Below, piece by piece: positions 2,677-55,891 of a stretch of 64,000 nt of DNA; within the stretch, counting starts at the first letter, position 1, and each line of letters begins with the position of its first letter. The notes below the pieces were generated by a model. That model did not search any database. It was not told the DNA's origin and saw only the letters and a list, made by a program, of their open reading frames with translations. This stretch comes from Craspedostauros australis (taxonomy: Eukaryota > Bacillariophyta > Bacillariophyceae > Mastogloiales > Achnanthaceae), in contig JAMXDE010000030.1 in the NCBI GenBank assembly GCA_026770025.1, positions 654,001 through 718,000 of the forward strand. Direction: 5' to 3'. The position numbers were made by a program, and so were the translations under genes.

Positions 2677-2696
2677 CCGAATGCACACAGGAAGGG

Positions 2697-12933: not shown

Positions 12934-13002
12934 AGCCCGCTTGCCGCCATCTTGGGCGGCGGAACGAACCACACTACGATTAGCTTTCTTGCTTTCAGTC
13001 AA

Positions 13003-13020
13003 CTCACGTTTCGACGTGAG
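13003..13020 (+). other. Seven-base-pair hairpin with TTCG loop
   Basis: CTCACGT (13003-13009), loop TTCG, ACGTGAG (13014-13020) is a perfect stem closed by a UUCG-type loop, about 70 bases after the stop of the preceding frame. It could be an RNA structure in a 3' untranslated region or element end. A GC-rich stem (GCCGCC/GGCGG) lies at about 12940-12962. Confidence 0.4.
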
Positions 13021-13031
13021 ATGAAGGGGAG

Positions 13032-13563
13032 TAATAGAGCTACACTAGTACCCATCTTAGAGAGAGAGACTACAAATCATCCGACTCGTCAGCATTCCAG
13101 TGGATCGAACGAATACTTCACCGACCCCCACGTTTGGGGACAGATCCAGAACCTTGAAGCAGATCTTCGGAATTCGTGTCAGGGAACCAACAGGGTTCCG
13201 ATAACCGAGCCACTGACACCCACCATCGCCAAAACACCGACACAGGGAAACAGTACCCCAGCAACGCGCATCATCGCCCATTGTCTCTCACAGAACTCAG
13301 ACAACGGATCTCGACCCACGGTACTCAGGCTACACAACCAACACGCATTGTCAATCAGGACACCACAGGAGATCCCCCTCGAAGGGAAGAACCATAGCAC
13401 TAATCTCATAATCCGCACGTTTCTTCACCATCTACCAGTATTCTAAATTGACTACTTGTGGAACAGAAGACTCACGTTCGGACCGCTTGCCAGTCAAGCC
13501 TCTGCCTACAGCTAAACAACAGCCAACAAGACAACAGCCATTACGTTTGGGCTCTATTATCTC
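13032..13563 (+). repeat. Old duplicated segment, left copy (about 8% diverged from right copy)
   Basis: It aligns with 45744-46220 followed by 48934-48983. The right copy is interrupted by a DNA transposon at the position equal to 13516/13517, so this copy is the empty site. A 164-residue frame at 12952-13446 crosses the segment but is not kept open in the other copy, so I do not call it a gene. Confidence 0.8.
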
Positions 13564-13837
13564 CACATGGGTTCCATTGATCCAAAGCCTAGACAAAGCA
13601 GCAGCCTCGGTATGCCCACCGCCACCACGCAATCCTCAACATTTCGTTACAAGTAACCGCCTCACCCACGTGAAATGTGAGTGTGTCGATGATAGACACG
13701 ACTGGACAGCATGTCGAAACACGACTGACGATTCCGAACCCCATTTGCTCTGCACCGTCCGCACGCTTAACGCTACTAGGCAAAGGCTAATGCGAAAAAT
13801 ATAACTTTGTAACTATAAGGCTCAGGAGTCTATAACT

Positions 13838-14254
13838 TCACGCACACCCAATACAGCATAGCAGGATGAATTCAGTGCTGAAATATTGTATCAGAACGAA
13901 GCTACAATCGTATCCTGAATGGGTCTTATGCTCACGCTGGGTCCACGCAGCAAACAGCTCGAGTCTGTTGTCCATTTGGTATTGGAGAATCACACACAGA
14001 GCCTCGAATGGGTGCACATGGCACTGGTGGCCATGGCGAACAGTGTCGCTCATGGTCTTCAAGTTCTTGATTCGGCAGTTCAAGCGCTCGTGTCGGTAAC
14101 GAGCGCGGCTCTTGAACTTCGCATCATCTTTTCGTGAAAAATCCTGTTCTTGGGGCCTGCACACCAATCGCCAACCCACACACAAACAGCTCAAGCGAGT
14201 CCCGCGACCTGTGTGCTTCCACCAAAAAATGCATTTGGTGTACAAAAATTGCAT
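13838..14254 (-). pseudogene. DDE transposase C-terminal fragment (Harbinger/IS5-like)
   Basis: The 138-residue frame contains KSRARYRHERLN, then RIKNLKTMSDTVRH and FEALCVILQYQMDN. From memory this resembles the last part of DDE_Tnp_4-type (PIF/Harbinger) transposases, where the Glu of RHER is the third catalytic acid (codon at 14087-14089 complement). The N-terminal DD portion is missing, so it is a fragment. Two near-identical relatives lie at 46623-47021 and 50202-50618. The family assignment is from motif recall, not a search. Confidence 0.55.
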
Positions 14255-14320
14255 TTGAAGTGCATTAAATGCAAATGCAGTGCATTAAATGCAAATGGAG
14301 TGCATTAAATGCACTTTCAG
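14222..14320. repeat. Short array of near-palindromic 20-base TGCATTTAATGCA units
   Basis: About four to five units of the form AGTGCATTAAATGCAAATG occur here. The same unit forms longer arrays inside the transposon at 46463-46655 and 48499-48697. The core TGCATTAAATGCA is almost self-complementary. Confidence 0.75.
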
Positions 14321-14799
14321 TTGTGCATCAGATTGATTCGTGACTCAAACAACTACAGTCACAACGGCGGTCATTGGACACCAATAGACGATCTCGTTAA
14401 ATATTGTACTTAACGACACGACATTTACTGGTCATTTTCAGCGAATGCAACGACACAGATTGTGGAGGTAAGACTAATTCGATTAAACAGCCTCGATTCA
14501 TCTCTCTGGTCAAATGAGTCAAACGACGCACGTTTCAATGGGTTTGCCAGGTGTTGCTGTTGATGACGTGGTTGCGAGCGTGCAGCACTCGGGAAGGGAG
14601 TTTTGGGAATAGCAGGAACAGGGTTTACCGCAGCTTCCAACTTAACCCTTTACCGTTAATGACAGTCCCAACTCATGTCCCACAGCAAACTTGTCCGAGC
14701 GGAGTAGTATGTCTCAGTGAGGGCCCAATCATGTCGTAGTTATGTCTTGGGAATTGTGGTTGTGCAGGGAAAGTGCCTGCATAGTCGAAGCGGATGTAC

Positions 14800-15092
14800 G
14801 GTCGAAGTGCATGTGCAGTGCATGCGCACGAGCAGGGAAAATGCAGGCGCAGGAAAAGTGCAGTGCATGTGCATGCGCATGTTCAGTTGAAGTGCAGTGC
14901 ATGTGCGTGCGCAGGGAAAACGCAGGCTCTGGAAAAGTGCAGTGCATGCGCATGCGCATGTTCAGTCGAAGTGCAGGTGCAGTGCAGTCCCTGTGCAGTG
15001 CAGTCCCTGTGCAGTGCAGTCCCTGTGCAGTGCAGTCCATGTGCAGTGCAGTCCATGTGCAATGCAGTCCATGTGCAATGCAGTCCATGTGC
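14800..15092 (+). repeat. GTGCAGTGCA-rich tandem array with 16-base units, left copy
   Basis: A core of 16-base units GTGCAGTGCAGTCCCT (later units ending CAT or AATGCAGTCCAT) spans about 14980-15090. It is preceded by longer degenerate repeats with TGCATGCGCATGCGCATG and CAGGCGCAGGAAAAGTGCAG. The period of 16 is not a multiple of three, so every frame reads as a repetitive Cys-rich peptide by default. The array precedes the SAPT gene by about 1.5 kb and differs in length and unit type from the array in the right block. Confidence 0.85.
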
Positions 15093-16590
15093 ACGCGCGC
15101 ATCCACTTTCCACGTGCAACGACGCAACGATCAGACGCGCGGGGCGACACATGGACAGAAAATTGCATGCCGGCGCAGGTCCGTCGCACACTGTTGGAGC
15201 ACATCGATAATCGCGTTTGTTGATGCATCACGACCAACCAGTTTGCGAATGACATTTATGCTTGTGGTGGAAACAAACGCATGCTTCCAGACGAGAATCA
15301 TTTTACCCTGTCCTCCAGACCTGTAATGCTTTGCTGAAACGAACACGAACGTCAGATGTTGCGCCATTGCTTTGACGCAAATAGCGCACACCACTACTAT
15401 GCTATCATGGAGAAGTGCAATGCAATTGTTCCACCGTATTCGTTGCAAAGTACTATATGCAAGTACATCAACATTACTGGTGGTTACACTTTGATTGGGA
15501 ATCGGCACTCGCTGACCACACAATCTTGCTTCACAGGGGAGGTGCACTAAGAACACCGCGAAACACAGCTCACAGGAATCTCCTCGTTGCCTCCGAAATC
15601 GAAACAAAGTCTCATAAAACAAATCGGTCATCAGATTGAAAACGCCAACAACCAGCAATCAACTGACAACCAGCAATCAACTGACAACCAGCAGTTGCAA
15701 GGAGACGACTCGCCCCTCTGAGGTCGCAACGAAGAGAAACAAACCAAAAAGGTACGCGCACATCACGAAGAAAGGGGGAGGGAAGCTTGGCTGATGGATG
15801 AGGAAGATCGGACAGCACACACGCACACGCGCACGAACACGCTCACCTACACAACGGAGCATGCAGTCATTTGCAAAACCGAGGTCAAGACGCACACGAA
15901 CTGCGGACAGCGTCGCAGATGATGCAGCAGCACTGATGAAACGGCAGCACGCACCAACGCTGGAGATGCAAGATACCTGCGAGTGTGAGCACCATACCTA
16001 CATTCCAGTCAATCTTCGCGGCTCGTTATGCAGCGGTGCTGCGGCCCCTGTCGGTGGCGCCCATCTCGTTCGGGATGCCTCGTATCATGTCAATGTCCAA
16101 CGCGCGCCACTCCACATCCAGGCGCTCAAACTCCGCACCTCCTCCAAGCCGAATTAACCCATGCTCTGCTCTTTTCCATCACCATCATTCCTTCTCTTCC
16201 CTTCCCTTCGCACGCGCAACTGATGCCTCCTGTGTGCGCAATCTTGACGTGATCGAATCGTCACGATGTTGTGTCGATTGATGGATATCGTTGATCTCCA
16301 TTGATTGTCGTCGTTGTCGTTGCTCGCCACCGCGTCTCGCGTCATTTCACACACCAACAATTATGCTCACACAAATGAACACATCGCTACGACACTCACA
16401 ATCGTTGCCGTTCTTCGTGGGACGGAACTCGCTGCCAAACTCACACATGATGCTTGCATTGCCAATCCCAACCCATACGTGATCCGTACCAACCCATTCT
16501 CGTGGCACGTACGCATACATGCACGCAAACAAAATGCCCCCGCCATACAGAACCAACAGTCTCACGACAGCACCGAAGACAACAGCAAAG
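15093..16590 (+). other. Upstream region of left SAPT gene, no supported gene
   Basis: Several frames of 60-175 codons occur on both strands, but none carries a recognisable domain. Since the whole block is duplicated almost unchanged, conservation between the copies is not evidence of coding. A pyrimidine-rich stretch lies at about 16170-16206, and direct copies of AACCAGCAATCAACTGAC at 15650-15685. The promoter of the downstream gene presumably lies here; I cannot place it. Confidence 0.5.
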
Positions 16591-19500
16591 ATGCTCTGCA
16601 CCAACACAGCCTTCGCGGCTTTTATCGCTGTCGCCAACACGGCAACAACCCACGCTATCCTCCGCGGCAACAGGATTCCTGTGGATCCAACCGAGGAACT
16701 CCACATAATGATGATGAAGACCCGCATCCTCAAGGACACCAATGGCGACGTGAAAACCAACAAGAACAACAAGAACAACCAAGTGCCACCCTCTGAAAAC
16801 CCAACTGATCCAGAAACGACCCCGCCAACCGCGTCGCCGACCTCCCAGCCCACGCTCCTACCATCTGCCAAACCATCAGCTGCCCCAATTGTCTTCGATT
16901 CCACCATCTCCGTTGTCTGCAAGCCGGATGGCGCTACCGATCTCACAATGGAAGAGAGAAGCACCAAGACCATCATCTGTAACTCTGCCAAGCCATCATG
17001 CCGCGAAGCCATCACCGCCGTCAAGGAATCCGAGCAGCTGCAGAACTTCTTCGGATGTGCAGGAGACCTCGGCGAAGGAGCTGCACGCAAGCTCTTCAGC
17101 AAGTACGCATCCAGCGATATCCTTGCTGGCCAATTGGCCATGGTCGCTACCACCAATCCAGTCCTGGTCACCGAACGACCAGATGAAATGAACGCAGCGT
17201 GCGCGGCCATCGCGGCGATGCAATCGCCTGCCGTCGCAGACCCATGCTGCCAAGGATCCTCGGGATGCACCTCAGTCACCGGTTCCGCCTCCAACTCTCC
17301 TCCATTCATGACCGTCGCTATCACTGCATGCACCGGTGACAGCGCCTGCAAGGACATGGGCCCCAACCCACTCATTCTCGATTCCTCCTGCACTGGCGCG
17401 AGTGCATGCGAGTTGATGAACGAAAATGAAATCAACCCGTCCATCACAGGAGTCACCTTCGTCGGTGAGATGGCATGCACCACTCCTCAATCTTGTGAGG
17501 GAGTGGGACGTCGTTCTCATGGTGATGTCACCATCCAGACCGGTGCATGCGTTGGGCCAGACGCATGCAAGGCAGCTGGACGCCGTGTCGTGCAGAAGGC
17601 CCTCTCCAACAACCGCAGCCACATCGACATCGGGGCGAATGCGTGCGTCGGCAGCAATGCCTGCAAAGATGCCCATTCCACTGTCAACTATGGTACTGCT
17701 GGCAAGCGTGCAGGCAGCCTGACCATTGGTGCTGGTGGTTGCGGCGCCGATGGGTCATGCGAGAAGATGGGCTTCAATGACAAGATGACAACCGACCTCG
17801 TCGTCCCTCCTGGTGGATGCAGCAGTGTCAAAGGCTGCAGGGGATGCATGACGAAGACAGAGTGCGGCTCCGACGAAGTCTACATCATCAGCGATGTTGA
17901 TGGGGCCTGCCCAAAGGGAGGCAATGACAGCAACATGAATCCCACTGGTGACAAGATGGACGAGTATTGCATTGGCAAGGACACCTTGCCCACAGACTGT
18001 CCGACCTTTTCTCCCACCCCTTTCCCAACACCTGTCACGTCACCTCCCACATCAGCACCCACAGCTCCAACTGCTTCACCGACTTCGGCACCGACCAGTG
18101 CCCCGACAAGCGCCCCAACTTCAGCACCGACCAGTGCCCCAACTTCAGCACCAACAAGCGCTCCGACGTCAGCACCGACCAGTGCCCCGACAAGCGCCCC
18201 AACTTCAGCACCAACAAGCGCTCCGACGCCAGCACCGACGTCAGCACCGACCTCAGCACCGACCAGTGCCCCGACAAGCGCCCCAACTTCAGCACCAACA
18301 AGCGCTCCGACGTCAGCACCGACCTCAGCACCGACCAGTGCCCCGACAAGCGCCCCAACTTCAGCACCAACAAGCGCTCCGACGTCAGCACCGACCTCAG
18401 CACCGACCGGTGCCCCGACCAGCGCCCCAACTTCAGCACCAACAAGCGCTCCGACGTCAGCACCGACCTCGGCACCGACCAGTGCCCCGACAAGCGCCCC
18501 AACTTCAGCACCGACGAGCACTCCGACTTCGGCGCCAACGAGCTCTCCAACAAGCGCCCCGACTTCGGCTCCAACTTCAGCTCCAACATCGGCTCCTACC
18601 TCGGCACCGACGAGCGCACCAAGCGCGCCAACATCCGCGCCAACCAGCGCCCCAACTGCCCTGACATTCCTGTCCGCTCTCGGAACACCAGGCACATCCG
18701 CAGGAAAGACCCTTCTCTCCACTATCCAAAACAAAGCTGATCTCCTCGGGATCTTCGAAAACCAGGCAAGCATTGCTGACGGCGTCGCTCTCTTCAATGT
18801 CATCAGTGGAAAGACCGGTGTCCTCGAGGTCTTCAGCGCTGCCGCTGCCGCCGCCGCCACCGGTGAGATGTTCACTGGAACCGCTCCTGAAGCTATTGAT
18901 TGGTGTGGTATGGCAGGACGCACATGCTGCGATGGAACCGAGGCCTGCTCCTGGACCGGGATCGCGTCTATCGCATCCAACAGTTGCATTGGGATCAAGG
19001 CTTGCAAAAGCATCGAGACTCAGTCCATGATCTTCGAGGGATCCTGCCTCTCTGGCACTTCTCCCGATAAAGACGCATGCTCCTTCTTCAACTTCAACTC
19101 TGGAAGTGACAAGGCCTCCATCATTGGACCAGGATCGTGCACTGGAAACCAGGCATGCTTCTCTCTCGCGCAACAGTCAGATGGCGACGCCATTATTGGC
19201 GCAGGATCATGCGCTGCACCAAGTGCCTGCCGTGAAATGGGTGCTGGACCAGCAAATTACGCGAGCGTAGGACCGACGAATGGCAGCGGCGGTATTGAAA
19301 ACAAGCGCGTGTCCACCACTATTGTGGGAGCCGGGTCCTGTGTCAACGACAGCTCGTGCACGTTCATGAACACTTTCTCCTACGACGTTGACGGACAGTT
19401 GAATCAGTTCGAGGGAGACACAACTATCGGTGATGGTACTTGCGTGCCGGCGGAATCCTGCAAATACTTGGGCTACGACTACGACTTTAACGCGGACATC

Positions 19501-19656
19501 ACCCTCTCCGACGGCGTGTGCAACGATACCCCCATCGCGGATGACATGAAATGCAACCGATGCCAATCCGGCATATTGTCGACATCCACCTGTGCGCCTG
19601 TAACTGCCGTCTTGACCATTGCCTCCGGCAGCTCTTGCCCAGCCACCTGCACCTAA
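16591..19656 (+). CDS. Secreted Cys-repeat protein with SAPT-repeat linker, copy 1
   Basis: I prefer the Met at 16591: it starts a good signal peptide (MLCTNTAFAAFIAVANTATTHA, cleavage about residue 22). The frame is also open from a Met at 16519, which would add 24 polar residues. From 16591 the product is 1021 residues. Order: signal peptide; Pro/Thr-rich spacer; a Cys-rich domain (about 110-465) with repeated C-x5-C motifs such as CTGDSAC, CTGASAC, CVGPDAC and CVGSNAC; a (SAPT)n linker from about 18039 to 18660, which looks mucin-like and O-glycosylatable; a second Cys-repeat domain (about 690-1021) with CDGTEAC, CTGNQAC, CVNDSSC and CVPAESC. Gly-rich strands between motifs suggest a stacked beta-solenoid. 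The protein probably sits on the cell surface or in the extracellular matrix; the exact role is unknown. The gene is intact. Its C-terminal domain differs strongly from copy 2 although the rest is almost identical. Confidence 0.85.
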   Translation: MLCTNTAFAAFIAVANTATTHAILRGNRIPVDPTEELHIMMMKTRILKDTNGDVKTNKNNKNNQVPPSENPTDPETTPPTASPTSQPTLLPSAKPSAAPIVFDSTISVVCKPDGATDLTMEERSTKTIICNSAKPSCREAITAVKESEQLQNFFGCAGDLGEGAARKLFSKYASSDILAGQLAMVATTNPVLVTERPDEMNAACAAIAAMQSPAVADPCCQGSSGCTSVTGSASNSPPFMTVAITACTGDSACKDMGPNPLILDSSCTGASACELMNENEINPSITGVTFVGEMACTTPQSCEGVGRRSHGDVTIQTGACVGPDACKAAGRRVVQKALSNNRSHIDIGANACVGSNACKDAHSTVNYGTAGKRAGSLTIGAGGCGADGSCEKMGFNDKMTTDLVVPPGGCSSVKGCRGCMTKTECGSDEVYIISDVDGACPKGGNDSNMNPTGDKMDEYCIGKDTLPTDCPTFSPTPFPTPVTSPPTSAPTAPTASPTSAPTSAPTSAPTSAPTSAPTSAPTSAPTSAPTSAPTSAPTSAPTSAPTPAPTSAPTSAPTSAPTSAPTSAPTSAPTSAPTSAPTSAPTSAPTSAPTSAPTSAPTSAPTGAPTSAPTSAPTSAPTSAPTSAPTSAPTSAPTSAPTSTPTSAPTSSPTSAPTSAPTSAPTSAPTSAPTSAPSAPTSAPTSAPTALTFLSALGTPGTSAGKTLLSTIQNKADLLGIFENQASIADGVALFNVISGKTGVLEVFSAAAAAAATGEMFTGTAPEAIDWCGMAGRTCCDGTEACSWTGIASIASNSCIGIKACKSIETQSMIFEGSCLSGTSPDKDACSFFNFNSGSDKASIIGPGSCTGNQACFSLAQQSDGDAIIGAGSCAAPSACREMGAGPANYASVGPTNGSGGIENKRVSTTIVGAGSCVNDSSCTFMNTFSYDVDGQLNQFEGDTTIGDGTCVPAESCKYLGYDYDFNADITLSDGVCNDTPIADDMKCNRCQSGILSTSTCAPVTAVLTIASGSSCPATCT
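18039..18660 (+). repeat. SAPT-coding minisatellite, copy 1
   Basis: Twelve-base units encoding Ser-Ala-Pro-Thr, with occasional TPAPT, GAPT, STPT and SSPT variants, are arranged in higher-order blocks of alternating codon usage (TCAGCACCGACC / AGTGCCCCGACA / AGCGCCCCAACT). By my count this copy has five more SAPT units than copy 2 between the TPAPT and GAPT landmarks. Confidence 0.9.
18664..19512 (+). other. Diverged patch in copy 1 C-terminal domain
   Basis: It starts immediately after the SAPT repeat and ends about 145 bases before the stop codon. It is about 14% different (hand count, slightly over 100 mismatches plus a 6-base indel) from 54904-55747, while flanks on both sides are nearly identical between the blocks. 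Confidence 0.85.
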
Positions 19657-21029
19657 ATGGCCTGTGGGAGCAGGAGCACGAACACATCCCTCCTCCGGTT
19701 CCACACCAAATCCAGGTCTTGAAGGGTGTGGGCCAGCTGCCTTATGGATAACAACAAAATCACCCTCTTCATTGGGTCTCCAACGCACCGGAAGTGTCCA
19801 ATGGATCTTGCCGTCCACCCGCATACAGTATCCGCGGGCTTGGGCGAGAGCGTTGTTGGGACAAGAAAGCAATATGGCGCTCAATTTGACCAATGCCTGA
19901 CAGCCCCAACACGCGGCGCACCGGAAAACAGTTCATGTCACGCATCCTCGTATACTCGTAAAACTAACATACGGACATATAATACTTGTCAAAGTGCAGC
20001 ATGAGCCGAACACCATAAGACTAGATTCTTGCTCCGTTCAAATACGACCTGCAGAGAATGTAAAATAGGTCGCGATAACACTAGTTGTGGAGATTTGTTC
20101 GTGATGAGTCATGATAAAGTAGACTAAAATAGAGCACACAGTTGGGATTCAATAAGGGACATGATAGAACAGAATATAATCATAGGGTACTTACTCCAAA
20201 TAAAGACTGATCAGATCCGACAATGAAGTATGTAGATTGTTTTGTATTTTGTTGTGCTCAAGTAATTTGATTGCAATGTTATCGAAGAAAGCTGGCCCAA
20301 TTCTGAATCTGATGAAGTCAGAATTGTGAGCATGAAGAGTGCAATGCAAGATGATGATGATGACGAAATGAGATTGCACAAGTTGCACACAGCAATACTG
20401 CTGTAAAATGATGCCTTGCACTGTTGTATTCACATGTGGGAGGAAATGCATGTTTGCAAGCACAGAGGTGAAGACAAGATTGCTGATACGATGGTGTGCA
20501 ATGATCAAGGTTGTGAATTAGTATTTATGAGGAGCTGCATTGGTTGTTGCAGGTGTTTCGTCTCCTCCTGATCCGCCGCGGTGATCGCGGTGATGTGCGG
20601 CCTTGCGGCGTCTTTCTACTAGGATCCACGGATTGTGTTCCTTGCCCTGGACTGTTCCTGCAGTTCCTTCACCTTCGGCGAACCTCGTCGAAGGCTGGGT
20701 TTGGAACGAGACGTGTTTCGGGCTAGGAAGCGTTTGGATGGTTGCACTTTGCCGTGACTGGCCGGAGGCTGGATTGGCAAAGATCAGATGGCACGTTCAG
20801 GTCCACGATGACCAGTACTGCCATAATTCTGAAGCTGTACAATTGAGGACTTGTTATTCAGATATATTGGATGAACCAATATATCTGAATTGCAAGGTGT
20901 CAACAAGATGGTGTGGAATTGAGGAATCAATATGACCCGTGTGAGTCAATAGCGGTGCGGTCCCTCCAGGATTCTTTGATTATGGACCTTCAATTCAGAT
21001 GAAACTTGGCGCACATACACTCTAACATA
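19657..21029 (+). other. Region downstream of copy 1 SAPT gene, no supported gene
   Basis: No frame with a recognisable domain is present. An AATAAAG motif occurs near 20199. It contains a perfect 15-base-pair inverted repeat at 20856-20890. The whole stretch is repeated almost base for base at 55892-57264. Confidence 0.6.
20856..20890. repeat. Perfect inverted repeat (15-bp stem, 5-base loop), left block
   Basis: ATTCAGATATATTGG, loop ATGAA, then the exact reverse complement ending in CTGAAT. The arm shares TTCAGATATATTGG with the B-family LTR (near 27080 and 58345). Confidence 0.85.
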
Positions 21030-21801
21030 TGTTGGCAAGTTCCGCTCACGGTAACCTACGATCGTGGAAGATAGTGTTGGTTGATAGTCGTTCGTTTGCT
21101 ATTTCATTACGTTGGCACTCCGATCCTCTCGGTGTACACCAGTTGTCTTGCCCGATACTCTTGGCGCTTCAATCTGTTTCGTAGATTCGATCGCCCAACT
21201 ATGAGTCGGTACGCGAGATCCTCTCTCTCTCAACATCGTGTACTTGCGCTACACGATGCTCCGTGTTTGATGCGTATTCCGCATTCCACACTCCGTTCAT
21301 TCAGTACTGGCTCCTACTCCATGAGTACTTACCATTTGAAGTTCACCTTCTGTATCCATGATGCTGATCCTCTTCGGTCATCGGATCTTTGCCTCCTGCT
21401 CTGACTTGGGGACAGATGTCGACGTGGTGACACGATGACATCCTGTCGACGTCAGTAGGCGTCCTTCTGCTCTCCAGATGTCACGTTCCATTGGTGATGC
21501 AGCAGCCTGTCAGATGATATCGTCATCTGAGGTTTGGTTGGGAAGTACCTTGAGATTCTCTTGGTACCATTGATGCATGGACGGACGATCTTCCAATTCT
21601 CCCAGAAATCGTTATTTGCAAATTTCCTCCAGAAATCTTGCCCCTTTTCGTGTGTTCCATTTTCCCTGTAATTCTGACGAATCACAGTATACTATCGACA
21701 CGAGTATAGTTATACCGTCCAAGTGCGTATGAGAGAATAACGGGTGAACGATGCACATATACACGTACATCTTGACATATACTCACATGTACATCTCGAC
21801 A
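21030..21801 (-). repeat. Family-A LTR on minus strand, 3' LTR of unit A4
   Basis: On the plus strand it starts TGTTGGCAAG and ends ACATCTCGACA (772 bp). The complement of the purine tract (CCCTTCCT) follows at 21802. The insertion site is shared with the LTR at 57265. Confidence 0.92.
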
Positions 21802-29027: not shown

Positions 29028-29354
29028 TGTCGAGATGTACATGTGAGTATATGTCAAGATGTACGTGTATATGTGCATCGTTCACCCGTTATTCTCTCAT
29101 ACGCACTTGGACGGTATAACTATACTCGTGTCGATAGTATGCTGTGATTCGTCAGAATTACAGAGGAAACGGAACACACAAAAAGGGGCAAGATTTCTGG
29201 AGGAAATTTGCAAATAACGATTTCTGGAAGAATCAGAAGATCGTCCGTCCATGCATCAATGGTACCAAGAGAATCTCGAGGTACTTCCCAACTAAACCTC
29301 AGATGACGATATCATCTGACAGACTACTGCATCACCAATGGAACGTGACATCTG
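29028..29354 (+). repeat. Family-A LTR fragment (first 327 bases)
   Basis: It has an intact LTR start inside B pol (left flank CTCTCTCCA) but stops after GACATCTG, where the next family-A LTR begins. No family-B sequence resumes on the far side of the A cluster. Confidence 0.9.
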
Positions 29355-45743: not shown

Positions 45744-46220
45744 AATAGAGCTACACTAGTACCCATCTTAGAGAGAGACTACAAATCATCCGACCTGTCA
45801 GCATTCCAGTAGATCGAACAAATACTTCACCGGCCCCCACGTTTGGGGACAGATCCAGAACATTGAAGCAAATCTTTGGAACCCGTGTCAAGGAACCATT
45901 GGGGTTCCGATAACCAAGTTTCTGACACCCACCATCGCCAAAACGCTGACACAGGGAAACGGTGCCCCAGCAACGCACATCATCGCCCATTGTCTCTCAC
46001 GGAACTCAGACAACGGATCTCGACCCACGGTACATGGGCTACACAACCCACACGCATTGTCATTCAGGACACCACAGGAGATCATCCCCAAAGGGAAGAA
46101 CCATAGCACTAATCTCATAATCCGTACGTTTCTTCACCATCTACCAGTATTCTCAATTGACTACTTGTGGAACAGAAGACTCATCTTCGGACCGCTTGCC
46201 AGTCAAGCCTCTGCCTACAG
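45744..46220 (+). repeat. Old duplicated segment, right copy
   Basis: It aligns to 13032-13516 at about 92% by eye, with small indels. No gene supported. It ends at the transposon insertion point CTGCCTACAG. Confidence 0.8.
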
Positions 46221-46462
46221 GGACACCCGGCAAGTCCATTGGAACGTGCGTCGTTTGACTCATTTGACCAAAGAGATGAATCGAGGCTGTTTAATCGAAT
46301 TAGTCTTTCCTCCACAACCTGTGTCGTTGCATTCGCTGAAAATGACCTATTGATGTCGTACCGTTAAGTATTATATTTAACGAGATCGTCTATTGGTGTC
46401 CAATGACCGCCGTTGTGACTGTAGTTGTTTAAGTCACGAATCCATCTGATGCACAGCTGAAA

Positions 46463-46655
46463 GTGCATTTAACGCACTCCAAATGCATTTAATGCACTTC
46501 AATTGCATTTAATGCACTCCATTTGCATTTAATGCACTGCATTTGCATTTAATGCACTCCATTTGCATTTAATGCACTTCAAATGCATTTTTTGAACTCC
46601 AAGTGCATTTAATGCACTGCAAATGCATTTTTTGCACACCAAATGCATTTTTTGG
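46463..46655. repeat. Left subterminal array of the DNA transposon
   Basis: About nine units of TGCATTTAATGCACTCCATT and variants, some with TTTTTTG in place of TTTAATG. The start is about 243 bases from the left end. Confidence 0.85.
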
Positions 46656-47021
46656 TGGAAGCACACAGGTCACGGGACTCGCTTGAGCTGTTTGTGTGTG
46701 GGTTGGCGATTGGTGTGCAGGCCCCAAGAACAGGATTTTTTGCGAAAAGATGGCGCGAAGTTCAAGAGCCGCGCTCGTTGCCGACACGAGCGCTTGAACT
46801 GCCGAATCAAGAACTTGAAGACCACGAGCGACACTGTTCGCCATGCCCACCAATACCATGTGCACCCATTCGAGGCTCTGTGTGTGATTCTCCAATACCA
46901 AATGGACAACAGACTCGAGTTGTTTGCTGTGTGGACCCAGCGCGAGCACAAGACCCATTCAGGATACGATTGCAACTTCGTTCTGATACAATATTTCAGC
47001 ACTGAATTCATTCTGTTATGA
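46623..47021 (+). pseudogene. DDE transposase C-terminal fragment inside the DNA transposon
   Basis: A 132-residue frame whose first 30 residues are read through the end of the array. The recognisable part runs from about 46710 (RPQEQDFLRKDGAKF) through RHERLN (candidate catalytic Glu at 46788-46790), RIKNLKTTSDTVRH and FEALCVILQYQMDN to the stop. The catalytic DD part is missing, so it cannot act alone. It is the same fragment as at 13838 and 50202 in the opposite orientation. Confidence 0.55.
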
Positions 47022-48498
47022 TTTATTGGGTGTGCGTGAAGTTATAGACTCCTGAGCCTTATAGTTACAAAGTTATATTTTTCGAATTAGCCTTTGCCTA
47101 AAACCGTCAAGCGTGCGGACGGGAGAGGGCAAATGGGTTCGGAATCGTCAGTCGTGTTTCGACATGCTGTCCAGTCGTGTCTATCATCGACACACTCACA
47201 TTTCACGTGGGTGAGGCAGTTACTTGTAACGAAATGTTGAGGATTGCGTGGTGGCAGTGGGCATGCCGAGGCTGCTGCTTTGTCTGGGCTTTGGATCAAT
47301 GGAATCCATGTGGAGAAGAATACATATGGTGGTGAGCGGGTTGCAGGCTCCATGCTACCCACAGTGGGTACACCCCAATTCAACCTTTGCCCTCACCCTT
47401 AACTTGACCTGCATCATGCCTTGTTCTTGGTCTGCTGCTGTTCATGGTCCAGGAGGTTCAGCTTCGTCCACATCTCAATCAGCACATGCTGCCTTCCCTC
47501 CATATACCTACTCTATAGTACAGCCTTGTCCTTGCTTCAGGTCTATTCCCTGCCTGTGTGTTTGGACCTCCTCTCTGCTCGTCGTCGCCAATTGCCATCA
47601 TTGGCTTTGAACTGTTGCTCATCTGCTCCACCTCTTTACTTCTTGTTTCAGTGGTATTGAATCCACAAGCACTTGAATCATGATGCAAGAAACAACAAGG
47701 AGAACAACACTACAGTCACCAGTCTCTTTCTGCACCATGCCAACAGCTCAGCAGATGATCATGGCGTCCCATGTCCAAGGGGGACAAAGCAGGTTGTGCA
47801 GGACTTTGTAGAACATCCACAAACTATGCCAAGTATTATTTAGTATTGCATTTTGTTGTGCATAGCAAAGGATAAGTCACTGCCCTCCATTACATTACAT
47901 TACATAATATTATGTTGTGTACCATTCACACGTGTGGCTGGTGTGGCCAACATGTAGGGATGACACCACCAATGCTTTGCTGCTTGACACAACACCGCCA
48001 GGAGGAAACACCCAAAGGAGCCAAATCACCAACAGCGTGAGCAACCAACATGGCACTGGACCTGTCACAACATCACCATCCACACCATTGATTACAATTT
48101 CGGTCTGTCATCGACCGTCAATGACGTCATGCATTTTGTCCGCGTTGAGGACAAGCCAGCCAGTATTTGTGTCGTAGACTCTAGCTAAATATATATGACC
48201 CTATTGGACAACACGTTACATCACCGTCTAAGAAAGTAGAGTTGTCCGATTATGGATCTTCAGGAAAACATGATGGTACCCAGCATGGGACTTATAGACA
48301 ACACGATGGTACCCAGCATGGGGCTTGCAAGAACCACTGAATTGGCAGCAGGAGAATTGTTCTTGCTCACCACGACCACCTTCCGTTCGCAAACAGTACG
48401 TCTGGCTCATGCAACCACCAGTTTTGCGCCCAGCGGTTGGATGTGGCGAGTTGACACCAGGAGGATCCATTCACGAATTGTGGACAGCAAAACCGATG
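47022..48498. other. Transposon interior, no supported gene
   Basis: Homology to the remnant in the host blocks continues to about 47308; after that the sequence is unique in this window. Frames on both strands are short and without recognisable domains. A doubled GATGGTACCCAGCATGGG occurs at about 48271-48323, and a TGACGTCA palindrome near 48122. Confidence 0.6.
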
Positions 48499-48697
48499 AA
48501 GTGCATTTAATGCACTTCAAATGCATTTTTTGCACTCCAAATGCATTTAATGCACTCCAATTGCATTTTTTGAACCCCGAATGCATTTAATGCACTCCAT
48601 TTGCATTTAATGCACTCCAATTGCATTTAATGCACTTCAAATGCATTTTTTTAACCCCAAGTGCATTAAATGCACTACAAATGCATTAAATGCAAAA
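48499..48697. repeat. Right subterminal array of the DNA transposon
   Basis: About nine units of the same 20-base family as the left array. It ends about 236 bases before the right end, which mirrors the left array's distance. Confidence 0.85.
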
Positions 48698-48933
48698 GGA
48701 AGCAGGTTCGACGGGACTCGATGACACTTCAACCAAACGGAAGCAATGACCAAATTTGTCCGAGTATCACCGATTGATAAAGTATTAATATCAATGAATC
48801 AAACAAAGACGTCGCTGCGACATTTGCTTTGTCAACATCTCACAAACAACGAAGAAACACAACAAATGACAAAAAGCACTTTGGAGTCGTACTAGTCGTA
48901 AACTGAAGTATTTGATGCACTTGCCGGGTGTCC

Positions 48934-48983
48934 CAGCTAAACAACAGCCAACAAGACAACAGCCATTACATTTGGGCTCTATT
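48934..48983 (+). repeat. Host segment between two insertions
   Basis: The fifty bases match 13514-13563 with one difference. They are bounded by the DNA transposon on the left and a solo LTR-C on the right. Confidence 0.85.
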
Positions 48984-49916
48984 TGTCAGGAATCGGGTGT
49001 TGTGAAACACCGAATTGCCGCACCTCCCAAGAGTGTGGAGTTGAGCATTGTGGAATGCTACATTACCGCACCTCCCAAGAAGTCAAGAGTCAGGAGTCGA
49101 ATGTCATGAAATTATACATTACCGCAACTCCCACGTTTGATCATTGTGACACAGAAAAATGTGAGCTGCACGTAACTTGTGGTGGAGAACGCCACGTGCC
49201 GAATGCGAACCGGACTATGGTGTCCGTGACCTCAATGCAGGAATGCCAATCACACGTGTATGTCGCAGGGGGCGGGGATGTTGGAATCGTGACCAACATC
49301 ACGATACGAGCGACTACGGCCCCCATGTCGCAACCAATGAAAAAGAGTACTGGAGGAAGGCCAATGTCACGAAGTGTGAGACGGCCTGTGAACGAACCAG
49401 TGATGACGAACTTCCAGGAAGCCGGTGAAGTGATCGGCGAAGTAATGGGAGAAACGACAGGAGAAGCATCGGAGAAGATCGGAGATGATCGGAGATGTTT
49501 GATGGTCGAGGAGCTGAATGAGCTCCCAACCAAGGTGCTCCTGTGACGAGTGGGAAATCGTGATCTGATCGAATGAACCGATCTGTGTGATGCCTACGAC
49601 TCGGCGATGTCTACGCTAATGAAACTATTGGTAGAGGGCAGGAGATGGAATATCTGAGATGCATGATGAGATGCATGATGAGATGAACCAATACTGCAAG
49701 ATGAGATGTACATGGAGTACATGCTGCATGACATGATGAAGCAGGAGGACAGCACTGCATGAGCAAGGGCAAGACTGTGTGCTACTGTGGATTATGTATG
49801 CTTTGGCAAATGGAATTGAAAGTGATGATGTTGTACTCACAGTTCCAACAATGCAATAACAGGAATAGGTAACCAGAGACTACTACTAGAGACTGGGGTA
49901 CCCCGAATTTCCAACA
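48984..49916 (+). repeat. Solo LTR of family C with target duplication
   Basis: 933 bp from TGTCAGGAATCGGGTG to CCCCGAATTTCCAACA. TCTATT flanks it on both sides (48978-48983 and 49917-49922). The left block keeps the empty site GGGCTCTATTATCTCC at 13550-13565. Duplication length is 5 or 6, depending on whether the first T belongs to the LTR. It is about 140 bp longer than the other LTR-C copy. A 187-residue frame across it (48983-49546) has no recognisable domain. Confidence 0.88.
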
Positions 49917-50201
49917 TCTATTATCTCCACATGGGTTCCATTGATCCAAAGCCCAGACAAAGCAGCAGCCTTGGCATGCCCACCGCCACCACGCAATCCT
50001 CAACATTTCGTTACAAGTAACCGCCTCACCCACGTGAAATGTGAGTGTGTCGATGATAGACACGACTGGACAGCATGTCGAAACACGACTGACGATTCCG
50101 AACCCCATTTGCTCTGCACCGTCCGCACGCTTAACGCTACTAGGCAAAGGCTAATGCGAAAAATATAACTTTGTAACTATAAGGCTCAGGAGTCTATAAC
50201 T

Positions 50202-50618
50202 TCACGCACACCCAATACAGCATAGCAGAATGAATTCAGTGCTGAAATATTGTATCAGAACGAAGTTACAATCGTATCCTGAATGGGTCTTATGCTCACG
50301 CTGGGTCCACGCAGCAAACAGCTCGAGTCTGTTGTCCATTTGGTATTGGAGAATCACACACAGAGCCTCGAATGGGTGCACATGGCACTGGTGGCCATGG
50401 CGAACAGTGTCGCTCATGGTCTTCAAGTTCTTGATTCGGCAGTTCAAGCGCTCGTGTCGGTAACGAGCGCGGCTCTTGAACTTCGCATCATCTTTTCGTG
50501 AAAAATCCTGTTCTTGGGGCCTGCACACCAATCGCCAACCCACACACAAACAGCTCAAGCGAGTCCCGCGACCTGTGTGCTTCCACCAAAAAATGCATTT
50601 GGTGTACAAAAATTGCAT
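50202..50618 (-). pseudogene. DDE transposase C-terminal fragment, right block
   Basis: 138 residues, differing from the left-block copy by about one residue (DCN for DCS). It has the same RHERLN...SDTVRH...LQYQMDN pattern and lacks the catalytic aspartates. Confidence 0.55.
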
Positions 50619-50690
50619 TTGAAGTGCATTAAATGCAAATGCAGTGCATTAAATGCAAATGGAGTGCATTAAATGCACTTTCAGTTGTGC
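50586..50690. repeat. Short array of 20-base TGCATTAAATGCA units, right block
   Basis: It is the same as the array at 14222-14320. Confidence 0.75.
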
Positions 50691-51174
50691 ATCAGATTGA
50701 TTCGTGACTCAAACAACTACAGTCACAACGGCGGTCATTGGACACCAATAGACGATCTCGTTAAATATTGTACTTAACGACACGACATTTACTGGTCATT
50801 TTCAGCGAATGCAACGACACAGATTGTGGAGGTAAGACTAATTCGATTAAACAGCCTCGATTCATCTCTCTGGTCAAATGAGTCAAACGACGCACGTTTC
50901 AATGGGCTTGCCGGGTGTTCCTGTTGATGACGTGGTTGCGAGCGTGCAGCACTCGGGAAGGGAGTTTTGGGAATAGCAGGAACAGGGTTTACCGCAGCTT
51001 CCAACTTAACCCTTTACCGTTAATGACAGTCCCAACTCATGTCCCACAGCAAACTTGTCCGAGCGGAGTAGTATGTCTCAGTGAGGGCCCGATCATGTCG
51101 TAGTTATGTCTTGGGAATTGTGGTTGTGCAGGGAAAGTGCCTGCATAGTCGAAGCGGATGTACGGTCGAAGTGC

Positions 51175-51395
51175 ATGTGCAGTGCATGCGCACGAGCAGG
51201 GAAAATGCAGGCGCAGGAAAAGTGCAGTGCATGCGCATGCGCATGTTCAGTCGAAGTGCAGGTGCAGTGCAGTCCCTGTGCAGTGCAGTCCCTGTGCAGT
51301 GCAGTCCCTGTGCAGTGCAGTCCCTGTGCAGTGCAGTCCCTGTGCAGTGCAGTCCCTGTGCAGTGCAGTCCCTGTGCAGTGCAGTCCATGTGCAC
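51175..51395 (+). repeat. GTGCAGTGCAGTCCCT tandem array, right copy
   Basis: It has seven or eight consecutive 16-base units with the CCCT ending and one ending CCAT. The left copy has fewer CCCT units, additional CAT units and an extra upstream repeat of about 100 bases. Confidence 0.85.
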
Positions 51396-52891
51396 GCGCG
51401 CATCCACTTTCCACGTGCAACGACGCAACGATCAGACGCGCGGGGCGACACATGGACAGAAAATTGCATGCCGGCGCAGGTCCGTCGCACACTGTTGGAG
51501 CACATCGATAATCGCGTTTGTTGATGCATCACGACCAACCAGTTTGCGAATGACATTTATGCTTGTGGTGGAAACAAACGCATGCTTCCAGACGAGAATC
51601 ATTTTACCCTGTCCTCCAGACCTGTAATGCTTTGCTGAAACGAACACGAACGTCAGATGTTGCGCCATTGCTTTGACGCAAATAGCGCACACCACTACTA
51701 TGCTATCATGGAGAAGTGCAATGCAATTGTTCCACCGTATTCGTTGCAAAGTACTATATGCAAGTACATCAACATTACTGGTGGTTACACTTTGATTGGG
51801 AATCGGCACTCGCTGACCACACAATCTTGCTTCACAGGGGAGGTGCACTAAGAACACCGCGAAACACAGCTCACAGGAATCTCCTCGTTGCCTCCGAAAT
51901 CGAAACAAAGTCTCATAAAACAAATCGGTCATCAGATTGAAAACGCCAACAACCAGCAATCAACTGACAACCAGCAATCAACTGACAACCAGCAGTTGCA
52001 AGGAGACGACTCGCCCCTCTGAGGTCGCAACGAAGAGAAACAAACCAAAAAGGTACGCGCACATCACGAAGAAAGGGGGAGGGAAGCTTGGCTGATGGAT
52101 GAGGAAGATCGGACAGCACACACGCACACGCGCACGAACACGCTCACCTACACAACGGAGCATGCAGTCATTTGCAAAACCGAGGTCAAGACGCACACGA
52201 ACTGCGGACAGCGTCGCAGATGATGCAGCAGCACTGATGAAACGGCAGCACGCACCAACGCTGGAGATGCAAGATACCTGCGAGTGTGAGCACCATACCT
52301 ACATTCCAGTCAATCTTCGCGGCTCGTTATGCAGCGGTGCTGCGGCCCCTGTCGGTGGCGCCCATCTCGTTCGGGATGCCTCGTATCATGTCAATGTCCA
52401 ACGCGCGCCACTCCACATCCAGGCGCTCAAACTCCGCACCTCCTCCAAGCCGAATTAACCCATGCTCTGCTCTTTTCCATCACCATCATTCCTTCTCTTC
52501 CCTTCCCTTCGCACGCGCAACTGATGCCTCCTGTGTGCGCAATCTTGACGTGATCGAATCGTCACGATGTTGTGTCGATTGATGGATATCGTTGATCTCC
52601 ATTGATTGTCGTCGTTGTCGTTGCTCGCCACCGCGTCTCGCGTCATTTCACACACCAACAATTATGCTCACACAAATGAACACATCGCTACGACACTCAC
52701 AATCGTTGCCGTTCTTCGTGGGACGGAACTCGCTGCCAAACTCACACATGATGCTTGCATTGCCAATCCCAACCCATACGTGATCCGTACCAACCCATTC
52801 TCGTGGCACGTACGCATACATGCACGCAAACAAAATGCCCCCGCCATACAGAACCAACAGTCTCACGACAGCACCGAAGACAACAGCAAAG
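51396..52891 (+). other. Upstream region of right SAPT gene, no supported gene
   Basis: Essentially identical to 15093-16590. Nothing additional is seen. Confidence 0.5.
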
Positions 52892-55891
52892 ATGCTCTGC
52901 ACCAACACAGCCTTCGCGGCTTTTATCGCTGTCGCCAACACGGCAACAACCCACGCTATCCTCCGCGGCAACAGGATTCCTGTGGATCCAACCGAGGAAC
53001 TCCACATAATGATGATGAAGACCCGCATCCTCAAGGACACCAACGGCGACGTGAAAACCAACAAGAACAACAAGAACAACCAAGTGCCACCCTCTGAAAA
53101 CCCAACTGATCCAGAAACGACCCCGCCAACCGCGTCGCCGACCTCCCAGCCCACGCTCCTACCATCTGCCAAACCATCAGCTGCCCCAATTGTCTTCGAT
53201 TCCACCATCTCCGTTGTCTGCAAGCCGGATGGCGCTACCGATCTCACAATGGAAGAGAGAAGCACCAAGACCATCATCTGTAACTCTGCCAAGCCATCAT
53301 GCCGCGAAGCCATCACCGCCGTCAAGGAATCCGAGCAGCTGCAGAACTTCTTCGGATGTGCAGGAGACCTCGGCGAAGGAGCTGCACGCAAGCTCTTCAG
53401 CAAGTACGCATCCAGCGATATCCTTGCTGGCCAATTGGCCATGGTCGCTACCACCAATCCAGTCCTGGTCACCGAACGACCAGATGAAATGAACGCAGCG
53501 TGCGCGGCCATCGCGGCGATGCAATCGCCTGCCGTCGCAGACCCATGCTGCCAAGGATCCTCGGGATGCACCTCAGTCACCGGTTCCGCCTCCAACTCTC
53601 CTCCATTCATGACCGTCGCTATCACTGCATGCACCGGTGACAGCGCCTGCAAGGACATGGGCCCCAACCCACTCATTCTCGATTCCTCCTGCACTGGCGC
53701 GAGTGCATGCGAGTTGATGAACGAAAATGAAATCAACCCGTCCATCACAGGAGTCACCTTCGTCGGTGAGATGGCATGCACCACTCCTCAATCTTGTGAG
53801 GGAGTGGGACGTCGTTCTCATGGTGATGTCACCATCCAGACCGGTGCATGCGTTGGGCCAGACGCATGCAAGGCAGCTGGACGCCGTGTCGTGCAGAAGG
53901 CCCTCTCCAACAACCGCAGCCACATCGACATCGGGGCGAATGCGTGCGTCGGCAGCAATGCCTGCAAAGATGCCCATTCCACTGTCAACTATGGTACTGC
54001 TGGCAAGCGTGCAGGCAGCCTGACCATTGGTGCTGGTGGTTGCGGCGCCGATGGGTCATGCGAGAAGATGGGCTTCAATGACAAGATGACAACCGACCTC
54101 GTCGTCCCTCCTGGTGGATGCAGCAGTGTCAAAGGCTGCAGGGGATGCATGACGAAGACAGAGTGCGGCTCCGACGAAGTCTACATCATCAGCGATGTTG
54201 ATGGGGCCTGCCCAAAGGGAGGCAATGACAGCAACATGAATCCCACTGGTGACAAGATGGACGAGTATTGCATTGGCAAGGACACCTTGCCCACAGACTG
54301 TCCGACCTTTTCTCCCACCCCTTTCCCAACACCTGTCACGTCACCTCCCACATCAGCACCCACAGCTCCAACTGCTTCACCGACTTCGGCACCGACCAGT
54401 GCCCCGACAAGCGCCCCAACTTCAGCACCGACCAGTGCCCCAACTTCAGCACCAACAAGCGCTCCGACGTCAGCACCGACCAGTGCCCCGACAAGCGCCC
54501 CAACTTCAGCACCAACAAGCGCTCCGACGCCAGCACCGACGTCAGCACCGACGTCAGCACCGACCAGTGCCCCGACCAGTGCCCCGACAAGCGCCCCAAC
54601 TTCAGCACCAACAAGCGCTCCGACGTCAGCACCGACCTCAGCACCGACCGGTGCCCCGACCAGCGCCCCAACTTCAGCACCAACAAGCGCTCCGACGTCA
54701 GCACCGACCTCGGCACCGACCAGTGCCCCGACAAGCGCCCCAACTTCAGCACCGACGAGCACTCCGACTTCGGCGCCAACGAGCTCTCCAACAAGCGCCC
54801 CGACTTCGGCTCCAACTTCAGCTCCAACATCGGCTCCTACCTCGGCACCGACGAGCGCACCAAGCGCGCCAACATCCGCGCCAACCAGCGCCCCAACTGC
54901 CCTGGCATTTCTGGATGCCCTCGGAACACCAGACACACTCCCGGGATTAATCCTTTTCTCCATTATCCAAAACGAAGCTGATCTCCTCGGGATCTTCGAA
55001 AACCAGGCAAGCATTGCTGACGGCGTCGCTCTCTTCAATACCATCAGCGGAAGGACCGGTGTCTTCTATATCTTCAGCGCGGCCACCACCGCCACCGGTG
55101 AGATGTTCACGGGGACCGATGCTGAGGCTATGGCTTGGTGTGGTATGGCAGGACGCACATGCTGCGATGGAACCGAGGCCTGCTCCTGGACCGGCATCGC
55201 GTCTATCGCATCCAACAGTTGCATTGGGGACAAGGCCTGCAAAAGCATCGAGACTCAGTCCATGATCTTCGAGGGATCCTGCCTCTCTGGCTCTTTTCCC
55301 AGTTCTAACGCATGCTCCTTCTTCAACTTCAACTCTGGAAGTGATAAGGCCTCCATCATTGGACAAGAATCGTGCACTGGAAACCAGGCATGCCACTCCT
55401 TTGCGCAGCAGTCAGATGGCGACGCCATTATTGGCGCAGGATCATGCGCTGCATCACATGCCTGCGTTGCCATGGGTGCTGGACCAGAAGACTACAAGAC
55501 CATAACACCCACTCAGGGCAACGGCACCACCGACAACAAGCGCGTGTCTACCACTGATGTGGGAGCCGGGTCCTGTGTCAACGACAGCTCGTGCGAGTAC
55601 ATGAACTCTTTCTCCTACGGCTGCGGCAAAAACTTCAATCAGTTCGAGGGAGACACACTTATCGGTGATGGTACTTGCGTGCCGGCGGAATCCTGCAAAT
55701 ACTTGGGCTACGACTACGACTTTAACGCGGACATCACCCTCTTCAGCGGCGTGTGCAACGATACCCCCATCGCGGATGACATGAAATGCAACCGATGCCA
55801 ATCCGGCATATTGTCGACATCCACCTGTGCGCCTGTAACTGCCGTCTTGACCATTGCCTCCGGCAGCTCTTGCCCAGCCACCTGCACCTAA
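52892..55891 (+). CDS. Secreted Cys-repeat protein with SAPT-repeat linker, copy 2
   Basis: 999 residues from the preferred Met at 52892 (frame also open from 52820). The signal peptide and N-terminal Cys-repeat domain are the same as in copy 1; I saw one silent base difference over the first 1.5 kb. The SAPT linker (about 54340-54901) is five units shorter. The C-terminal Cys-repeat domain keeps the spacing of its C-x5-C motifs (CDGTEAC, CIGDKAC, CTGNQAC, CAASHAC, CVNDSSC, CVPAESC), but the segments between them are heavily substituted, and it has an extra Cys in SYGCGKNFNQ where copy 1 has SYDVDGQLNQ. The last 48 or so codons are again identical. Both copies are intact, which favours function. 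Secretion and surface location are inferred; ligand or role unknown. Confidence 0.85.
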   Translation: MLCTNTAFAAFIAVANTATTHAILRGNRIPVDPTEELHIMMMKTRILKDTNGDVKTNKNNKNNQVPPSENPTDPETTPPTASPTSQPTLLPSAKPSAAPIVFDSTISVVCKPDGATDLTMEERSTKTIICNSAKPSCREAITAVKESEQLQNFFGCAGDLGEGAARKLFSKYASSDILAGQLAMVATTNPVLVTERPDEMNAACAAIAAMQSPAVADPCCQGSSGCTSVTGSASNSPPFMTVAITACTGDSACKDMGPNPLILDSSCTGASACELMNENEINPSITGVTFVGEMACTTPQSCEGVGRRSHGDVTIQTGACVGPDACKAAGRRVVQKALSNNRSHIDIGANACVGSNACKDAHSTVNYGTAGKRAGSLTIGAGGCGADGSCEKMGFNDKMTTDLVVPPGGCSSVKGCRGCMTKTECGSDEVYIISDVDGACPKGGNDSNMNPTGDKMDEYCIGKDTLPTDCPTFSPTPFPTPVTSPPTSAPTAPTASPTSAPTSAPTSAPTSAPTSAPTSAPTSAPTSAPTSAPTSAPTSAPTSAPTPAPTSAPTSAPTSAPTSAPTSAPTSAPTSAPTSAPTSAPTGAPTSAPTSAPTSAPTSAPTSAPTSAPTSAPTSAPTSTPTSAPTSSPTSAPTSAPTSAPTSAPTSAPTSAPSAPTSAPTSAPTALAFLDALGTPDTLPGLILFSIIQNEADLLGIFENQASIADGVALFNTISGRTGVFYIFSAATTATGEMFTGTDAEAMAWCGMAGRTCCDGTEACSWTGIASIASNSCIGDKACKSIETQSMIFEGSCLSGSFPSSNACSFFNFNSGSDKASIIGQESCTGNQACHSFAQQSDGDAIIGAGSCAASHACVAMGAGPEDYKTITPTQGNGTTDNKRVSTTDVGAGSCVNDSSCEYMNSFSYGCGKNFNQFEGDTLIGDGTCVPAESCKYLGYDYDFNADITLFSGVCNDTPIADDMKCNRCQSGILSTSTCAPVTAVLTIASGSSCPATCT
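54340..54901 (+). repeat. SAPT-coding minisatellite, copy 2
   Basis: Same 12-base units as copy 1, with nine SAPT units between the TPAPT and GAPT landmarks against fourteen in copy 1 by my count. Confidence 0.9.
54904..55747 (+). other. Diverged patch in copy 2 C-terminal domain
   Basis: Counterpart of 18664-19512. In the first 245 bases I count about 28 changed codons, of which about 21 change the amino acid. Confidence 0.85.

Follow-up and report, generated by a model that had tools for sequence, protein, structure and literature searches.

A diverged C-terminal domain between near-identical flanks in two SAPT-family genes of the diatom Craspedostauros australis

Two copies of a SAPT gene differ mainly in one domain

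We analyzed 64,000 nucleotides of the Craspedostauros australis genome (assembly GCA_026770025.1, contig JAMXDE010000030.1, positions 654,001 to 718,000 of the forward strand; C28:654001-718000 in our numbering). This whole stretch is called the window below, and positions refer to it unless a contig is given. Genome searches covered 74.8 Mb in 90 contigs. The window carries two copies, A and B, of one block, each with a gene whose product consists of a cysteine-rich N-domain, a linker made mostly of SAPT repeats, and a cysteine-rich C-domain (Table 1).

We aligned A (13553-21700) with B (49910-57940). The island at 18664-19511, within the C-domain, contains 106 substitutions and one 6-base indel, or 12.6% of 842 aligned bases. 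The adjoining flanks contain 2 substitutions (16743 and 18252) and one 60-base repeat-unit indel over 15079-18663, and 0 substitutions over 19512-21340. At the flank rate of 2 in 5,414 bases, ~0.3 changes would be expected in 848 bases. A preliminary description of this DNA had proposed a diverged C-domain island within a near-identical duplication. The alignment bears this out, with the proposed edges (18664 and 19512) correct to the base. The count of a little over 100 mismatches plus a 6-base indel also held, but the estimate of ~14% divergence was too high, and the island begins 7 bases past the last SAPT codon rather than immediately at the end of the repeat. The near-identity claimed for the remainder applies without reservation to 19512-21340, but 13560-14800 carries 9 substitutions, mostly within a dispersed repeat, the tandem repeat at 14870-15078 carries 10 substitutions and two indels, and 10 substitutions fall in 21341-21661, inside a long terminal repeat (LTR).

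Codon comparison confirmed that the island is in frame, keeps its cysteines and is rich in amino-acid change. The differences are spread evenly over the codon positions (38, 37 and 31) and comprise 60 transitions and 46 transversions (AG 33, CT 27, AC 15, GT 11, CG 10, AT 10). Between the two N-domains, synonymous divergence (dS) is 0.003 and nonsynonymous divergence (dN) is 0. Between the C-domains, dS is 0.108 and dN is 0.116 (dN/dS, or ω, 1.07), and the framework codons of this domain have a dS of 0.091. The nearest other paralog pairs have C-domain dS values of, for example, 0.11-0.17. As the A/B value lies at the low end of this range, the island is of ordinary family age and the flanks are young. 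The unusual feature of the pair is the youth of its flanks. For 82 of the 106 island differences, both bases are present among the 16 other family genes that we aligned, and private changes number 10 in A and 14 in B, with none private to both, which makes both islands look like old family sequence.

Table 1 Features of the two copies in the window
Feature	Position	Strand	Remarks
Copy A of the shared block	13560..21340	+	Near-identical to 49924-57575 except the island; 5' edge in dispersed repeat, 3' edge in LTR
Copy B of the shared block	49924..57575	+	From the A/B alignment
Gene A	16591..19656	+	1021 aa; plausible Met, then signal-peptide-like stretch (by eye); stop included; open frame 16483-19656
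Gene B	52892..55891	+	999 aa; layout as gene A; open frame 52784-55891
Gene A, signal-like segment, short PT stretch and conserved cysteine-rich N-domain (to YCIG)	16591..17976	+	A/B dS 0.003, dN 0
Gene A, linker, mostly SAPT repeats	17977..18654	+	226 aa versus 206 in B and 36-175 in the 16 remaining genes
Gene A, hypervariable cysteine-rich C-domain	18655..19653	+	333 aa; weak match to Pfam DUF7640
Diverged island in A	18664..19511	+	From the A/B alignment
Diverged island in B	54905..55746	+	From the A/B alignment and the C84 copy
End of A C-domain and 3' flank	19512..21340	+	No difference from B
Dispersed repeat adjoining copy A	13000..13562	.	From genome searches
Mostly dispersed repeats upstream of copy B	46217..49917	.	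Includes inverted relative of 13560-14560; from genome searches
LTR downstream of A	21030..21661 (B: 57265-57896)	.	First half identical in A and B, second half 2.8% different

Much of the surrounding sequence is repetitive. The stretch 13032-13600 had been read as an ~8% diverged part of the host block and could have marked an old duplicated flank. We rejected it, because genome searches show that it and 45744-46220 are dispersed repeats with relatives at 91-95% identity on many contigs, and the comparison says nothing on A and B. The segment 13560-14554, present in both copies, is a dispersed repeat too, and the extra 3.7 kb on the B side (46217-49917) consists largely of dispersed repeats. 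Elsewhere in the window, elements that we named Copia-type by eye (1-3489 and 29354-44279) lie head to tail with a 7066-base period and are ~97% alike, with a 327-base direct duplication at 29028-29681. An Rfam search of the window gave no matches.

A and B belong to a large family with a hypervariable C-domain

The preliminary description had proposed searching the genome for other members, and these exist. Searches with the C-domain of A matched at least 125 stretches genome-wide, a lower bound as 121 of 374 candidates were scored. At least 34 near-full-length C-domain rows had ≥50% identity, A and B included, and 33 of the 34 were without a stop, the exception being an unpolished copy of B on contig C84. 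We therefore saw no archive of silent or broken donors among these near-full-length rows. The codon alignment comprises 18 genes (153 pairs) that have a homologous C-domain, a SAPT-type linker and an N-domain. It omits relatives with ≤71% DNA identity to A, L044 (the C84 copy), L053 (the same locus as L022, which is included), and L058 and the C5 and C76 genes, whose C-domains are split or partial. N-domain coverage is partial in some genes, so that the N-domain recombination tests used 13 of the 18, the tree test 16, and the dN/dS analysis and N/C contrasts all 18, with as much of the N-domain as each locus has.

The two domains evolve differently at the amino-acid level. Over the 153 pairs, the median ω is 0.26 in the N-domain (median dS 0.30) and 0.85 in the C-domain (median dS 0.24). 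The median C/N ratio is 0.90 for the proportion of synonymous differences (pS) and 2.7 for the proportion of nonsynonymous differences (pN). As synonymous divergence is alike in the two domains across the family, faster mutation does not explain the island. Entropy of ≥2 bits was found in 44 of 325 well-filled C-domain columns versus 2 of 439 in the N-domain. Relative to the second cysteine in repeated C-x-C pairs, such hypervariable columns concentrate at positions -3, -2, +1 and +2 (14 of 29 columns versus 30 of 296, p = 2e-6). Further ones are found at residues 237-249 (nine columns, one of them in register) and in 292-314 (12 columns).

The hypervariable columns also differ in their pattern of change. 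Among the 16 genes other than A and B, pooled pN exceeds pS at these columns (0.56 versus 0.38), and the reverse holds for the rest of the domain (0.12 versus 0.18). Of the 46 columns classed as hypervariable from the 16 remaining genes, 18 have an amino-acid difference between A and B, versus 41 of 288 columns elsewhere (p = 2e-4); at those 46 columns, A/B pN is 0.26 and pS 0.09. The dN/dS check suggested in the preliminary description gives an ω of 1.07 for the A-B C-domain overall, with an excess of amino-acid change at columns that vary in the rest of the family too.

Several observations concern the wider distribution of these domains. Family member L027 has a counterpart among Craspedostauros transcriptome proteins, which aligns with it in two pieces (97.6% and 99.2%). 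A 4711-aa open frame at C11:1343158-1356507 has 12 tandem C-domain-like matches ~1125 bases apart, eight of them equal-scoring. Three distant family matches with equal scores (C73:7997, 16712 and 25427) are spaced by exactly 8715 bases, which looks like a tandem triplication or a repeat in the assembly. At C2:1728446-1730763 and ~20 other places there are N-domain relatives (82-89% DNA identity) without a close DNA match to this C-domain, and these perhaps carry other C-terminal modules. A 729-aa protein from a Joint Genome Institute (JGI) metagenome, P0002, carries the N-domain (73% identity, query coverage 78%) and by eye ends in a cysteine-rich part of another kind. From this protein, the family seems to be present in a related organism as well. 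The ~100 telomere-search matches listed, out of 1073, include ones on C3, C5 and C11.

Ten of 18 family genes test as mosaics

We compared the histories of the two domains and of segments within them. The N- and C-domain trees of 16 genes reject each other in approximately unbiased (AU) tests (p = 0.002 and ~1e-81). A 3SEQ-type test of the island identified 10 of 18 genes as significant mosaics, A and B included (Bonferroni correction, 4896 triplets), whereas none appeared in each of 28 recombination-free simulations in which site rates were kept. These were the 28 of 60 simulations taken through this test, and all used the tree built from the island itself. The pairwise homoplasy index (PHI) of the island has a z of -4.0, compared with a minimum of -2.2 in the 60 simulations. 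Uneven constraint confounds a Sawyer-type longest-run test (p ≤0.01 in 42 of 153 pairs), in place of which we relied on the 3SEQ-type and PHI tests. By trees, 3SEQ-type test and PHI, there is more phylogenetic switching in this family than mutation alone would give, as in a gene-conversion mosaic family. An identified non-reciprocal donor, the other mark of gene conversion, was not found for the A or the B island among the family loci compared.

The mosaic structure is visible along the islands. In 120-column windows, the nearest relatives of the A island are L041/L043 over 18898-19194 and then L042 over 19195-19374; those of the B island are L051, L041, L047 and L048 in turn. As sister C-domains, A and B have 96% support if the identical tail is included; from the island only they are not grouped, with weak support (49-53).

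A contrast between N- and C-domain synonymous divergence exceeds the Bonferroni threshold in 4 of the 153 pairs (A-B, B-L054, L041-L047 and L049-L054), and A-B is the strongest (p = 2e-9). Exchange between family members on different contigs is supported by these sequence comparisons. With a high island dS, a flank dS near zero and mosaics across the family, the proposal that the island reflects recombination rather than local mutation stands. The further suggestion of a dedicated diversification system goes beyond these data, as signals of exchange are also found in the N-domain and the A/B contrast is the most extreme of 153 pairs, not a repeated event.

We considered whether other pairs resemble A and B. 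L026 and L034 (C41, ~29 kb apart) have a 3' flank that is 3% different and C-domains that are ~18% different, but were rejected as a second case, as N-domain pS (0.166) equals C-domain pS (0.154). Among 81 pairs with an alignable 3' flank, C-domain pS exceeds flank divergence in 28 (p <0.01) and the flank is more diverged in 13; constraint on the 3' flank could explain much of this contrast. Two other pairs, L032/L033 (C6) and L035/L036 (C38), have C-domains that are 93% and 98% alike versus 70% and 78% for the upstream sequence. In both, similarity is distributed in the opposite way to A/B, as though the C-domain had been the part to move or to be homogenized.

Possible histories of the A/B pair

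Old islands in young flanks fit three histories: homogenized flanks, an imported island, or two old alleles in tandem. On balance, we lean towards the first, in which A and B, two genes from a large family that is dispersed in the genome and codes for probably secreted proteins, recently acquired near-identical flanks and retained C-domains as old as those of other paralogs. Segments would pass between members on different contigs through ectopic recombination, with gene conversion as the simplest mechanism. The 5' flank, N-domain, linker, C-domain tail and 3' flank of A and B would have become almost identical recently, by conversion or duplication on both sides of the island, and the C-domains, spared by this event, would have kept their old sequence lineages. 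The SAPT repeat array may have helped to set one edge of the island. Selection for C-domain diversity, for example in surface contact (adhesion, partner or microbe recognition), may keep the two islands different.

Several results weigh against this history. The A/B data do not polarize the event, and island import fits them too. The outer half of the LTR differs by 2.8%, which is below the 10.8% dS of the C-domains. Under simple homogenization around old paralogs, more would be expected, although LTRs recombine among themselves and this one may have evolved separately. Over 19315-19476, A has B as its nearest relative. Positive selection is visible only in column subsets, given the C-domain ω values (median 0.85; A-B 1.07). 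The PHI p-values are too small here, because 7 of the 60 recombination-free simulations also gave p ≤0.05 and one the smallest possible p, and only the comparison of z counts. With four-fold sites alone, of which 18 are informative, PHI is not significant (p = 0.13). The N-domain also gives a significant PHI, and the 3SEQ-type test, there without a simulation control and with A and B almost the same sequence, is significant for 12 of 13 N-domains. Exchange is therefore not peculiar to the C-domain and seems to run along the whole gene. Finally, the locus is near a contig end with an overlapping unpolished contig, which leaves a small probability of assembly error.

Import of the island is, in our view, rather unlikely, although it is the simplest history: one event after one duplication. 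A 7.8-kb block would have been duplicated recently, after which one conversion event would have brought a C-domain tract of ~850 bp into one copy from a third gene. Such a tract length is ordinary for gene conversion, and the genome holds many potential donors. B also stands out at the 3' edge. If ungapped polymorphic columns are compared, identity to L041 extends over 19429-19563 in A and only over 19429-19507 in B. However, the closest C-domain to that of A among 30 family loci other than B is 12% different, and the closest to that of B among 16 genes is 11% different (the C84 copy of B aside in both cases). A recent import would be expected to leave a near-identical donor. As there is none among these loci, a recent import from an assembled paralog was not seen, although a donor may be missing from the sampled genes. 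Both islands moreover have private changes, and neither matches one relative throughout. The preliminary description had offered homogenized old paralogs or an imported cassette; the recombination common to both is supported, and of the two we favor the first, without certainty.

Somewhat less probable again is an origin from former alleles. Diatoms are diploid, and long-lived alternative C-domain alleles in recombining flanks could have been placed in tandem by unequal exchange via LTRs or repeats. This would account for old islands in young flanks without a donor, and the edges of the block do lie in repeats. However, N/C contrasts are also seen in three other family pairs whose genes lie on different contigs, which shows that ectopic exchange takes place in any case.

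We also assessed whether the assembly could have created the pattern, through the joining of two haplotypes or diverged copies or the forcing of flanks to one consensus during polishing. The B locus occurs a second time on contig C84, in unpolished form: over 4.7 kb the two versions are separated by 59 indels and 6 mismatches, and one of the mismatches is in the island. The overlap of C84:67072-79106 with the end part of the window takes in copy B; the indels are dense in 54374-56600 and sparser beyond it. C84 terminates within copy B, and the adjoining stretch of that contig matches positions 60300-64000 of the window at 100%. We conclude that C84 is an unmerged overlap or a second haplotype. 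Its segment 73507-79106, a candidate third copy with a third island, was rejected, as it is the B locus with the sequencing-type indels and the mismatches just given. This overlap of the contig end fits an artifact, as do the 19 differences upstream of 15079, which lie in and around dispersed and tandem repeats where read placement is hard. We nevertheless find an artifact improbable, because both islands are open, in frame and family-like, and because the sequences beside A and B differ (other repeats), which precludes a simple haplotype join. C84 confirms the B island, which is thus seen in two contigs; the A island is seen in C28 alone.

Targeted hypermutation, or very strong selection on C-domain point mutations after duplication, is hardly credible: the even spread over codon positions and the enrichment at hypervariable columns would suit it, but the synonymous change in the C-domain, also at framework codons, and the family C/N synonymous ratio disfavor both mechanisms, and a bias of non-templated changes, as from a diversity-generating retroelement, was not found between A and B (the only comparison made), where 82 of 106 differences have both states in paralogs.

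Domain content, possible function and comparison with known systems

Pfam searches of genes A and B identified the PT repeat and, weakly, DUF7640 (PF24646), a domain of unknown function with a profile of only 121 positions. Protein A scores 29.5 bits against a curated gathering cut-off of 28.1 and protein B 23.1, below it, with the best stretches in the C-domain. DUF7640 has 163 matches in this genome and 0 in the 14 control genomes. The C-domain query also matches the N-domain of A and B (28% identity, E = 7e-9), which indicates that the two domains are distantly related. A search of solved structures gave one match (E = 0.26), which we took as chance, and an AlphaFold model of the C-domain built with three sequences was too poor to use (mean predicted local distance difference test score, pLDDT, 36). 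A beta-solenoid fold is a guess by eye.

The proteins are probably secreted, judging by eye from the signal-like start. Together with a mucin-like linker and hypervariable residues beside repeated cysteines, this start suggests a protein of the cell surface or the trail that has a contact face; any role in adhesion, partner recognition or microbe contact is a guess. C. australis is a raphid marine, biofilm-forming diatom and a model for gliding and underwater adhesion, and a variable secreted family would bear on how its cells tell substrates, partners or microbes apart. The domain-restricted divergence hints at an evolving recognition or adhesion repertoire in this biofilm-forming alga. A stronger proposal, which we regard as doubtful, is that the family is an active recognition repertoire: dozens of loci would trade C-domain cassettes or segments, the repeat linker would be a border prone to recombination, and selection would keep neighboring copies different. 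If so, individual cells or strains would differ in a surface or trail fingerprint used in contact with partners, substrates or microbes. The A/B pair is in any case a natural experiment, in which all but one domain are alike and functions are comparable domain for domain.

Recombination that reshuffles a hypervariable domain on a conserved scaffold is known from large gene families of parasites and of animal immunity and allorecognition. The var and variant surface glycoprotein (VSG) families are multigene surface-protein families diversified by ectopic recombination. The SAPT family may be likened to them in the many dispersed copies, the conserved scaffold, the variable domain and the mosaics between loci. 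It differs in that the near-full-length SAPT genes are open rather than a silent archive, and the likeness drawn here covers sequence features, not switching or single-copy expression. Among the open-licence papers that our searches listed, we found no description of such a diatom gene family. The nearest background is the benthic diatom Seminavis, for which many tandem duplicates and expanded families are reported (PMC7335047). By type only, and with no sequence relation claimed, the family can be likened to the animal allorecognition locus fester of Botryllus schlosseri, a recognition-type gene reported to be under selection (PMC3549757). From C. australis itself, the adhesive-trail or mucin-like surface proteins CaTrailin4, Ca5609 and CaFAP1 are described as extracellular and mucin-like or modular, and transformation of the species with GFP fusions is described as well (PMC11420354). 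Compared by description, CaTrailin4 and Ca5609 are ~900 kDa and >1 MDa (PMC11420354), whereas the A and B genes encode ~1000 aa.

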